From the NCBI RefSeq assembly GCF_900108915.1, contig NZ_FNYH01000004.1, positions 124,001 to 188,000 on the forward strand: 64,000 nucleotides of DNA. The letters are read 5' to 3'. The notes below the pieces were generated by a model that worked only from the letters and a program-made list of their open reading frames with translations, was not told the origin of the DNA and made no database searches. The position numbers and the translations under genes are program-made. This DNA comes from Allopseudospirillum japonicum (GTDB taxonomy: Bacteria; Pseudomonadota; Gammaproteobacteria; Pseudomonadales; Halomonadaceae). The stretch's first letter is position 1; each line of letters begins with the position of its first letter. This document shows, piece by piece, positions 7,775-17,893 of the stretch.

Positions 7775-10312
<2,538 letters not shown>

Positions 10313-10416
10313 TTAACTGATGGAGGGGCGTGCTTTAGATGGGGTTGCAGGTTAGCAGATTTCTTGGGTATCGACAATTAGCAAAACTTTGGAAAAAGCC
10401 AAGGGTAAAAAATACC

Positions 10417-10629
10417 TTAATTGAAATAGTCTTGGTCTTTGGCAGATTCATGTTTTTTGGTTTCGCGTTGGATCAAAGCGATCAAGCCCGAAGCGCATAT
10501 GAGCAAACCACAAGTGACCACTAGTTTGAATACTAACTCAGGATCTAGAGACAGGCCCCAAAGCTGGGCCAGCAAAATACAGGTGACCAGCAGGATACCA
10601 GCAATACTAATCCAAGCGGCAATCCGCAT
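10417..10629 (-). CDS. Small two-helix membrane protein
   Basis: 70 residues with two hydrophobic segments (about 4-25 and 33-52) and a charged tail QRETKKHESAKDQD expected in the cytoplasm. An AAAGGAG ribosome site stands 5 bases before the ATG, which argues for a real gene. Family not recognised. It lies between pyrG and the DUF4177-type gene, in the same direction. Confidence 0.6.
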   Translation of the reverse strand: MRIAAWISIAGILLVTCILLAQLWGLSLDPELVFKLVVTCGLLICASGLIALIQRETKKHESAKDQDYFN

Positions 10630-10730
10630 CTTGATCTCCTTTATTGGAAGGTTTAATGGGAGGCTTGTTCATCTTCCCCCTTGGTTGTCACAAGGAGGAA
10701 CCCAAGCGGTACAGTCGGGATTGCAGGCTT

Positions 10731-10937
10731 TTATCTTTCCAACACCACTAAAAAACCTTCACGTTGGAAAAATAATAACATCCGCCGGACTTCACGTTCC
10801 ATGGTGACCACACGCCAACCTTGACGGGCATGTCGATTTAAAAACTCACTAAAGCCTTCAGGGTCGACTTTCGACTGTCCCAAAAACAAAGAGCCTAGTA
10901 AACCTTCCCGATAAACCACAACCTTGTATTCTTTCAC
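10731..10937 (-). CDS. DUF4177-type small protein
   Basis: 68 residues. The pattern EYKVVVYREGLLGSLFLG, then FLNRHARQGWRVVTMERE, then RRMLLFFQREGFLVVLER matches the compact DUF4177 fold, whose function is unknown. The start is GTG at 10937; AGGATG upstream could serve as ribosome site. Same strand as the neighbouring small membrane gene, with a ~100-base gap. Confidence 0.75.
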   Translation of the reverse strand: MKEYKVVVYREGLLGSLFLGQSKVDPEGFSEFLNRHARQGWRVVTMEREVRRMLLFFQREGFLVVLER

Positions 10938-14806: not shown

Positions 14807-14946
14807 GCTGGCACCTGTTTGAGCAAATATGCCGGTAAAAATAAAGCGCATGGTATACGAGGCCTAGGTGTGATTCGGTACCTTATCAATCTAAGGGTAT
14901 GCCTTTTCCAGCTGATGGGCCAACATAAGAAGCGTGCCGTTTTTTC

Positions 14947-15156
14947 CTATAAATGCAGTACACTCAACTGGCTTGCAGTCTTTTTTCGCCAAAAATATCT
15001 TTGATTCTTCAGAGCTGTGCTTTTCAGTACGTGGTTAAATTTCTGATCATTGTCTTGGAACGAAAGATCTACCAAAGTGTTATTAATATACTCATAATAC
15101 ATAGCAAGAATATCTTTTAAATCATCAGGAAAAATAGACCTTACTATCTTAAGTAT
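14947..15156 (-). pseudogene. Coding-like fragment with lost start codon
   Basis: Directly after the TGA that ends the FRG frame, the same frame stays open for about 69 codons on the minus strand. It reads as plausible protein (IFPDDLKDILAMYYEYI, then NTLVDLSFQDNDQKFNH). No ATG, GTG or TTG start is placed for it. However, AAGGAG lies 5 bases before an ATA codon at the exact spot where an ATG would be expected, so a start may have mutated from ATG to ATA. The last ~17 codons may already be flanking DNA. Function unknown. Confidence 0.35.
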
Positions 15157-16458
15157 TCACTCTCCTTGCAATGTATCGTTAGATTTTAACTTGTCCGAAA
15201 TATATTTTGCAGAGTTTTCAATATATGGAAATACTGTGCTTTCATTGATATTTAATAGATCCAGCTCCTTCAAAATAGCCTTTTTGTTCGCGACAGTGAT
15301 TCTTGATAATTTGATTTCCGTAGTACCCTCTTCATCAAAGACTGTATCTAACCCAAACAAAAGGAATGCGCCAGACTGAGATGAGATTCTATCATTGCTC
15401 TGTTTTCCTTTTACGCAAATTATTTTTCTCAAGTCATCCGATATAATTATTGGCTCGAAGAATGGTTTTTCTTCTCTGATAAAGTGAAGTAATCGCTTAA
15501 TTGCTTTTTGTTCATTAAAACCTTGTTCTTCAAAGTTTATTTATTCTTTCTCGGTTTGCAGTAAGCGTGCCAAATTAGCAATGCAGCTAGCTAAATCTGA
15601 ATCGAAGTACTTAATGTCTTCTCGTTTGATTGAGAAAATAATGACTTCGCCTTCTTCGTCGATGGATGATTTACACGCGAAATAGAGAGCAATTAAAGGA
15701 TTGGAAGTTATATCAAGCAGTCTTGTCGGCAATGAGTAATGCTGCATCCTCACAAGACGATCAAGCGTGTAAATGTCTGACTGAAAGTCGGCGGAGTTAG
15801 AGACCAATAATTCTCTGTACAAAATATGTTCATTGTCTTTGTAAAGATAGTTACCTTTTTCATCTTTCCTAAACAGTGAAGGTTCCAACTTGTATTGCTT
15901 CTTATTTGAGTGGCCACGATAAAACACTTCATAACCATCTTCCTGCTCAAGGCCCAAAACCTTTCCAATAAACCCTTGGACCTTTTTTACCTTAGGATTT
16001 GGGGATTTTTCAGTTATAGGTCGATCCAGCTTAGTGGTCTTTATTTGCTTATCAGGTTCGAGAATCCCTTGATGTTGAAGTCTCTGAAACAAATCCTCGT
16101 CTTTTACCGCCCAATGAGTCCTGTTCATTTCCCACTCACGTATATCTAGCAATGTGGCGATTGGCTGGATTTGGGAATATGGTATTGGTTCTACATCTTG
16201 TTCGAGCTCAAATTCTATAAGGAGATTGCGGCCACGCTCTGTAATAGAAGTCAAACAACCAATTCGGGTATTCGAATTTTTCCCTTCATATGCAAATAGA
16301 CAAGGGTAGCTTTTTAGATTTTTGATGTGAGAGTCACTTAACCTTTTAAAAGCAGACGCAATAGTCTCGTTCGTATATTCAAGGAAGCGACTTTTATCAT
16401 ACTCATAAAAACCTTGGTCCCAAGCGCCTTCTATTGCGGTTACTAGTAGGTTGTACAT
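15157..16458 (-). pseudogene. FRG-domain protein gene interrupted by an in-frame ochre codon
   Basis: The frame runs from an ATG at 16458 to 15157 with a single TAA at 15541-15543. Both sides stay in one frame and together give a normal FRG-domain protein. Before the stop are FYRGHSNKKQYKLEPSLFR, RMQHYSLPTRLLDIT and NPLIALYFAC. After it come KRLLHFIREEKPFFEP, DDLRKIICVK, SQSGAFLLFGL and the closing helix NINESTVFPYIEN. FRG domains are of unknown biochemistry and are often found in mobile and defence-type loci. The open frame can be extended upstream to 16533, but that part lies inside the attC site. The ATG at 16458, 22 bases past the attC, with AGGA before it, is the natural cassette start. 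Readthrough or a sequencing error are alternatives to true inactivation. Confidence 0.75.
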
Positions 16459-16479: not shown

Positions 16480-16563
16480 ATTTAACGCCTTAAGCAGAGG
16501 TTTATTTTGCATTTTGGAGCGAAGCGACAGCAAAATAAATCCTGCTAACTTGGTTTGTTATAC
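16480..16563 (-). repeat. Integron attC site
   Basis: Read on the minus strand: R'' box GTATAAC (16563-16557), R' box GTTAAAT (16486-16480, perfect GTTRRRY). Between them are long imperfect inverted arms: GCAGGATTTATTTTGC pairs with GCAAAATAAACCTCTGC with one unpaired base. The unpaired centre TGTCGCTTCGCTCC is of a kind common in attC sites. Length is 84 bases, within the known range. It begins one base after the stop codon of the secreted-protein gene, exactly where a cassette keeps its attC. Confidence 0.82.
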
Positions 16564-16564
16564 G

Positions 16565-17113
16565 TTACCACGAGAAACTCTCCATTGTTATCTCCAAACC
16601 ATCTTGCCGTAGGACTCTTACAACTGAATTTTTTACATCAATATGCCAACTATCTGAAGGTAAGATCGTTTTCCCTTTAACTAGATTAGAACCATCTTTT
16701 TCCGCAAAATAAAATGTTTCGTGCTTTGTTTCCACATTACGTGTCAGTATTAGCATCTTAGATTTTGGTTCCCGCGAAGCAATACCATTGTTGTTTTTTA
16801 TTGGCGAAGCATAGTCAATATGAAATTTAACCTCTCCATTCTCTACAGATGTTTCAAAGGCTAGCGCGACCACCTGGAAATTATCTTTTTTTGGAAAAAG
16901 GTATTTCCCTTCGTTGGTTTCAGGGTTGTAAATATACAGATTTACAATTGAGTCACCGCCGCTGCTTAAAAATCCAGACTTCTTCTCACTTTCAACACTT
17001 TTGAAATACAAGCCTGTTTCAGGATCATAGGTATCAATGCTTGGATTGTAATATCCTCCTGCAAAGGAGAAGGTTGATAATACCAATATGCCAACAAATA
17101 CTGCTAACTTCAT
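16565..17113 (-). CDS. Secreted protein of unknown function carried as an integron cassette
   Basis: 182 residues with a clear signal peptide (MKLAVFVGILVLSTFSFAGG), cut probably after FAG or SFA. The mature part is mostly beta-type with no cysteines seen and mentions of YNPETNEGKYLFPKK and ILTRNVETKHETFYF; no family recognised. AAGGAGAG stands before the ATG. The stop codon abuts the attC, and the start lies 13 bases after a GTTATAC boundary, so the gene fills one complete cassette of about 570 bases. Base composition is lower in GC than the flanking chromosome. Confidence 0.75.
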   Translation of the reverse strand: MKLAVFVGILVLSTFSFAGGYYNPSIDTYDPETGLYFKSVESEKKSGFLSSGGDSIVNLYIYNPETNEGKYLFPKKDNFQVVALAFETSVENGEVKFHIDYASPIKNNNGIASREPKSKMLILTRNVETKHETFYFAEKDGSNLVKGKTILPSDSWHIDVKNSVVRVLRQDGLEITMESFSW

Positions 17114-17126
17114 TATCTCTCCTTAC

Positions 17127-17133
17127 GTATAAC
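17127..17133 (-). repeat. 5' boundary of the integron cassette
   Basis: GTTATAC on the minus strand, 13 bases before the ATG of the secreted protein. It is the exact reverse complement of GTATAAC, the R'' box of the attC at the other end of the same cassette. That is what is expected if the cassette once existed as a circle cut between G and TT. No complete attC arm is recognisable upstream of it. Confidence 0.6.
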
Positions 17134-17470
17134 ACTTTCATATCAGGCACGCTTATTTCGCCGATTTCAATATAACGACAACTTTGGAAGTGGTACTTTG
17201 ATAAGAAAGGAAAAATCCATTTTCTGATCTGACTGCTTCCCTGCTAAACGTGCATGCGCGATATCACACTCTTTATCTTAAGAGCTGCCGTGCGCCTGTT
17301 ATTCCGGCCACAACTTTTATCATTTATTGATCTTGCAATTTATCCCATTGCACCGTACCTGTAAACTGCGCATTTAAGCTGGGTAAATCGAGCACATTTT
17401 TTAGTAAGACCAAAAATGTACAGTATTATATTGAACCATAAAAACACAAAGATCATATGGAGGGTGATTT
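17134..17470. other. Gene-free AT-rich spacer in the island
   Basis: No credible reading frame, tRNA or complete attC is visible. It separates the cassette region from the IS200/IS605 relic and is probably eroded accessory DNA. Confidence 0.5.
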
Positions 17471-17700
17471 ATGGTTAACAGTCCATTTTTGGAAAATTTT
17501 GCAAAGTGTCAGGTCAGAGGGATGACGGCGCGGCTACAGGATGCAAACAGAAAAAACCTATATTCATTGGATGAAGCGCTTTATCTTCTGTCATCAACAA
17601 CGTCATCGGCAGTTCAGGGTAATGCGGCCAAGAACACACTTGCGGTTAGGCATAGCCGTCCTGTAGAGGGAATCCCCGTGCTTTAGCACGGGCAGATATC
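17471..17700 (+). pseudogene. Eroded tnpB tail with IS200/IS605 right end
   Basis: A 71-codon frame starts at ATG 17471 after GGAGGGTG and ends at 17686. Its last third (GNAAKNTLAVRHSRPVEGIP) looks like the segment after the zinc ribbon of TnpB, where D-x-NAAKNI is usual. The rest is not recognisable. The end overlaps GGAATCCCC and a perfect hairpin CCCGTGC-TTTA-GCACGGG (17675-17692), the usual right-end and guide-RNA scaffold form. The zinc ribbon and RuvC residues are gone, so this is a relic; whether the small frame is still expressed cannot be told. Confidence 0.45.
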
Positions 17701-17893
17701 AATGCAACCTCTTCCCAGTGAGGTGCAGATTGAGTAGCTTAAGCGGTATTTTACGAAGAATTCCCACAGATACCCAGAATTTTGGTTACAATGCCATTTT
17801 TAAATCGATAGATAAGTCAATGTATATTTAAGTTCATAGCTTTGGCTTGTGCTCGTCTAGGCTTACTCCTTCTTAGTCTACTTGAGATCTTTT

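Follow-up and report, generated by a model that had tools for sequence, protein, structure and literature searches.

The window analysed here, the whole 64,000-nucleotide stretch G000:C14:124001-188000, very probably contains a decayed chromosomal integron with two cassettes. Both cassettes bear the signature of integron insertion, as their boundary boxes indicate, and the 5' end of an integrase gene (intI) lies beside them. Cassette 1 is intact. Cassette 2, which carries a gene for an FRG-domain protein, is very likely dead, given its premature stop codon and its truncated attC. As no functional integrase is present at the locus, it is a relic and not a working integron. The original prediction of an integron cassette with its attC, in what would be the relic of a chromosomal integron, is supported by the cassette boundaries of homologues and by the intI stump. 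The features are, in order of position:

15155-15184, minus strand: truncated attC of cassette 2, with the R'' counterpart ATCTAAC at 15178-15184 and part of the left arm.
15157-16458, minus strand: gene of cassette 2, FRG-domain protein (PADLOC PDC-S15; PF08867, E 1.3e-21), start codon ATG at 16458.
16480-16563, minus strand: attC of cassette 1, with R'' GTATAAC at 16557-16563 and R' GTTAAAT at 16480-16486.
16565-17113, minus strand: gene of cassette 1, 182 amino acids, filling the space between the attC and the upstream box.
17127-17133, minus strand: boundary box GTTATAC of cassette 1, either attI or the R box of a lost attC, with the crossover after G.
17134-17470, no strand assigned: leader between the intI stump and the first cassette, from its position the expected site of attI and of the cassette promoter.
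17471-17612, plus strand: 5' remnant of intI (TIGR02249 positions 1-39, translation and DNA matches).
17621-17709, plus strand: 3' end of an IS200/IS605-type tnpB, fused to the intI stump.

In cassette insertion, IntI recombines the attC of the circular cassette, as a folded bottom strand, with attI; the crossover falls between the G and the TT of the box. In the standard layout of an integron, intI points away from the cassettes. The boxes of an attC were taken to be an R'' resembling RYYYAAC and an R' of the form GTTRRRY.

On the minus strand, the gene of cassette 1 ends with the stop codon TAA (16567-16565), which is followed after one base by R'' GTATAAC (16563-16557), the arms, and R' GTTAAAT (16486-16480). 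A 70-base imperfect palindrome lies between the two boxes. With R'', R' and imperfectly complementary arms placed after a gene, the site has the architecture of an attC, its R'' being one base off RYYYAAC. At the other end of the cassette, the start box GTTATAC (17133-17127) is the exact reverse complement of this R''. The same rule, by which a cassette starts with the reverse complement of its own R'', recurs in the array on contig C11 of this genome and in many integron loci. The letters of the 84-base site and of its R'' and R' boxes, the GTTATAC box at 17127-17133 with its exact complementarity to R'', and the end of the gene one base before the site had all been put forward in the original prediction, and all were found as described. 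For the plus strand, the bottom strand of the attC, folding is stronger than in 199 of 200 dinucleotide shuffles (z = -2.97); it is less marked for the other strand (z = -1.82). From the reading of the sequence, the extra unpaired base appears to be on the L' side, the typical location being L''.

The product of cassette 1 has an N-terminus that reads like a signal peptide. It gave no family match above cut-off and no recognised domain in Pfam, PHROG or PADLOC, and no plasmid or viral relative or credible PDB relative was found. A homologue with 72% identity is present in one of the 389 other genomes of the order (G153). This homologue ends like cassette 1 with TAA, one base, and GTATAAC, and its 5.2 kb contig carries two attC sites on the same strand, with no complete attC directly after the gene. 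Its start is abutted by a transposase-like sequence and the first residues are lost. This contig (L126, G153:C217) harbours an array of small minus-strand open reading frames with attC sites.

Scoring of the attC of cassette 1 gave a less clear result. With the curated thresholds of Rfam, one tRNA and no attC were matched in the window, and the matches at the locus were all sub-threshold chance matches. A covariance model was built from 36 other sites obeying the boundary rule (R' being the reverse complement of the next R''), drawn from the C11 array and from integron loci found with the C11 integrase. The structure of this set is supported by 110 cells changed on both sides, versus 49.7 in shuffles. 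With this first model, no site in the window outscored the attC of cassette 1, which reached 11.9 bits (E = 1.4 per 64 kb). A second model, with AT-richer sites, scored the site no higher: it came second in the window with 10.7 bits (E = 0.14 in the 2.8 kb locus). The weakest boundary-validated attC listed in six other loci reached 13.3 bits (model R1), above the site of cassette 1. The latter was not significant genome-wide and was absent from the genome-wide lists; it falls below the covariance-model threshold, which is a criterion of detection and not a biological definition. By its score alone, the attC of cassette 1 would be doubtful. It is the context that carries the case, not the model.

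The gene of cassette 2 is matched by PDC-S15 models in both of its pieces, which are separated by an in-frame TAA at 15541-15543. A frameshift was considered and rejected, as the two open reading frames are in one frame and align without gaps, leaving a single in-frame stop. Homologues with 70-71% identity are found in two of the 389 other genomes of the order (G069 and G138). In G069, the FRG gene has an attC on each side: upstream, one that ends with GTTAAAT, and downstream, one that begins with ATTTAAC. In G138, the sequence upstream of the FRG gene ends with GCGTTAAAT and the downstream attC also begins with ATTTAAC. For a cassette starting with GTTAAAT, ATTTAAC is the R'' expected from the boundary rule. 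The three-way alignment turns continuous at the GTTAAAT box. Since the homology starts exactly at this box, the FRG cassette starts with the R' visible in the 16480-16563 site, which bears out the earlier proposal that this R' belongs to the next cassette. Judging from these homologues, which share the start box and adjoin attC sites, the FRG gene was itself an integron cassette. The gene of cassette 2 is thereby found as a cassette in G069 and G138, and that of cassette 1 has an attC-linked homologue in G153.

Alignment with the homologues whose attC begins with ATTTAAC indicates that the attC of cassette 2 has lost its right arm and R'. No attC was scored by the covariance model at this truncated site. 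An ATTTAAC at 15034-15040 was examined as the possible R'' of cassette 2 and rejected, as it has no arms and the homologues place the box at 15178-15184. Further downstream on the minus strand, a decayed open reading frame at 14890-15150, with no convincing Pfam family match, may be either the ruin of a third cassette or a host gene that has broken down.

The original prediction saw no integrase in view. This part does not hold, as the 5' end of intI occupies 17471-17612, 338 bp past the cassette boundary and divergent from the cassettes. The TIGR02249 profile matches the plus strand at 17496-17612. The translation reads MVNSPFLENF in frame 1, then LQSVRSEG, a stop, and RRGYRMQTEKTYIHWMKRFIFCHQQRHRQ in frame 2, which is the N-terminus of IntI. 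At the DNA level, the best match is 77% over 77 positions to the start of the integrase gene of L118 (E = 1e-8), and many other intI starts match. At the protein level, tblastn found 54% identity, across the full length of the fragment, to records from plasmids, annotated IntI2 among them. About 47 residues are left. Of the intI expected beside the cassettes of a chromosomal integron, only this 5' remnant is present, and the frame change, the TGA stop and the missing 3' part show that no functional integrase is encoded.

The tnpB relic fused to the stump matches a Neptuniibacter transposase at 85% and a gene of the TnpB family at 78%. A similar tnpB end is found at L015:14151-14233, near the integron on contig C20; IS200/IS605-type tnpB 3' ends adjoin two of the broken integrons of the genome. 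In the leader at 17134-17470, no attC was scored and no significant match to the leaders of other integrons was obtained. The attI was not identified by homology, although an R-type box, GTTATAC, is at the right place. Gene order around the neighbouring kefB-like gene in relatives gave no useful information.

The genome holds other integron loci. A complete integron is present on C11, with an IntI scoring 420 bits and at least ten attC; its integrase shares 88% identity with the one from Hydrogenovibrio sp. SC-1. At this locus (L014, G000:C11:57000-76900), intI spans 9854-10804 with the attC to its left, and consecutive attC obey the R'/R'' boundary rule. The intI on C20 is near-complete but broken, with stops and frame changes (L015, 9137-10076). 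That on C13 is truncated (L016, 10986-11330), of the same type as the C20 gene and near-identical to it at the 5' end. Candidate attC in the expected orientation were found for both (L015:13159-13213 on C20 and L016:8552-8603 on C13). The intI stump at 17471-17612 does not belong to the type of the C11, C13 or C20 integrases. Two solitary high-scoring attC were also noted, with no integrase found nearby: one on C27 (L105:1501-1570, C27:51881-51950) and one 7 kb to the left of the window (L108:1501-1577, C14:116966-117042). The attC of cassette 1, used as a DNA query, has no near-identical copy in the genome. The proposed search for matching attC sites elsewhere thus identified no parent array; a complete integron and other attC do exist in the genome.

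The alternatives to a decayed integron bear on the attC, on the FRG gene and on the origin of the cassettes. An AT-rich palindrome such as a terminator may follow an ordinary gene, with the boxes arising by coincidence. The weak covariance scores are compatible with this, and palindromes resembling an attC are not rare by themselves: 60 first-order Markov resamples of the window contained 123 that reached the chosen score, about two per 64 kb of random sequence. The full composite of a palindrome, a matching upstream box and an open reading frame filling the gap, however, occurs once in the window and in none of the 60 resamples, and homologues from three other genomes keep the R'' and R' boxes in the corresponding positions. 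Chance is refuted by these homologue boundaries and its probability is negligible. Another reading is that the FRG gene was an ordinary chromosomal gene, that an integrase inserted cassette 1 at a secondary GTT site there, and that the stump is unrelated. Integrases are known to insert at secondary sites, and FRG genes occur apart from annotated integrons on plasmids, for instance in Paraburkholderia. Against this, two FRG homologues of the same subtype adjoin attC sites and share this start box, implying that the FRG gene was a cassette, and the stump is intI at both the DNA and protein levels. This explanation is largely refuted by the FRG alignment and is very improbable.

It could also be that the cassettes never had an integrase of their own at this place and broke away from an array at another place in the genome, forming a CALIN. 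The complete integron on C11 and the solitary attC on C27 and C14 speak for such an origin. Yet the 5' remnant of intI adjoins the first boundary in the canonical orientation, the stump is unlike the integrases of C11, C13 and C20, and no attC of C11 resembles that of cassette 1. In addition, a single complete attC is left, whereas by the default of IntegronFinder 2 a CALIN has at least two attC and no integrase (PMC9024848). We regard this origin as very unlikely, and the earlier alternative of a cluster of attC sites without integrase is not supported, given the adjoining remnant and the single complete attC. In favour of the decayed integron, the sporadic spread of the genes was also counted, cassette 1 and the FRG type being found in one and two of the 389 other genomes, respectively. 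Counted against it were the low attC score, the unpaired base on the L' side, the attI without homology, and the shortness of the intI stump.

A history of the decayed integron can be proposed. In the original, standard layout, intI would have occupied the plus strand, with attI next to its 5' end and the cassettes reading away on the minus strand. The integrase would have inserted cassette 1 and the FRG cassette via the folded bottom strand of their attC. Later, intI would have lost most of its length, with a frame change, a stop, and fusion to the IS200/IS605 tnpB relic. In cassette 2, the premature stop would have arisen and the right half of the attC would have gone; the end of the array would also have been deleted. 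The order of these losses is presumed. Loss of intI would freeze the array, and recombination has presumably stopped here unless an integrase from another locus, such as the complete C11 enzyme, acts in trans. The box at 17127-17133 may be attI, and cassette 1 was probably driven from the leader. It is possible, though rather doubtful, that FRG (PDC-S15) genes form a recurrent cassette class through which a candidate anti-phage function spreads among distant bacteria, and that the C11 integrase can still move cassette 1 in trans.

This integron relic would be missed by attC model scores alone and is recovered by matching cassette boundaries between species. The most useful part of the result is the candidate defence gene travelling as a cassette, which is common to three genomes. 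Our literature search found no paper containing both 'FRG domain' and 'integron', an absence from a search that is not proof of novelty. The locus is otherwise one more case of the known gain and decay of integrons.

The FRG gene resembles the PDC-S15 candidate anti-phage genes, matching PF08867 and the PADLOC models, but it is interrupted by a stop and borne by an integron, as it is in the two other genomes. The locus resembles a CALIN in having cassettes with attC but no working integrase next to them, and differs by its intI stump and its single complete attC. In a survey of intI genes, nearly a third were pseudogenes, and among the bacteria bearing integrons 20% had more than one (PMC2426708, Nemergut et al. 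2008). In the IntegronFinder 2 survey, more than one integrase was encoded by 22% of intI-bearing genomes (PMC9024848). The pseudo-integrons of the former survey (PMC2426708) likewise combine a broken intI, remaining cassettes, and more than one intI in the genome. The present case differs in that a stump of about 47 codons is fused to a tnpB relic and one attC is intact. It is a relic of a known kind, real but ordinary, as such wrecks are common.
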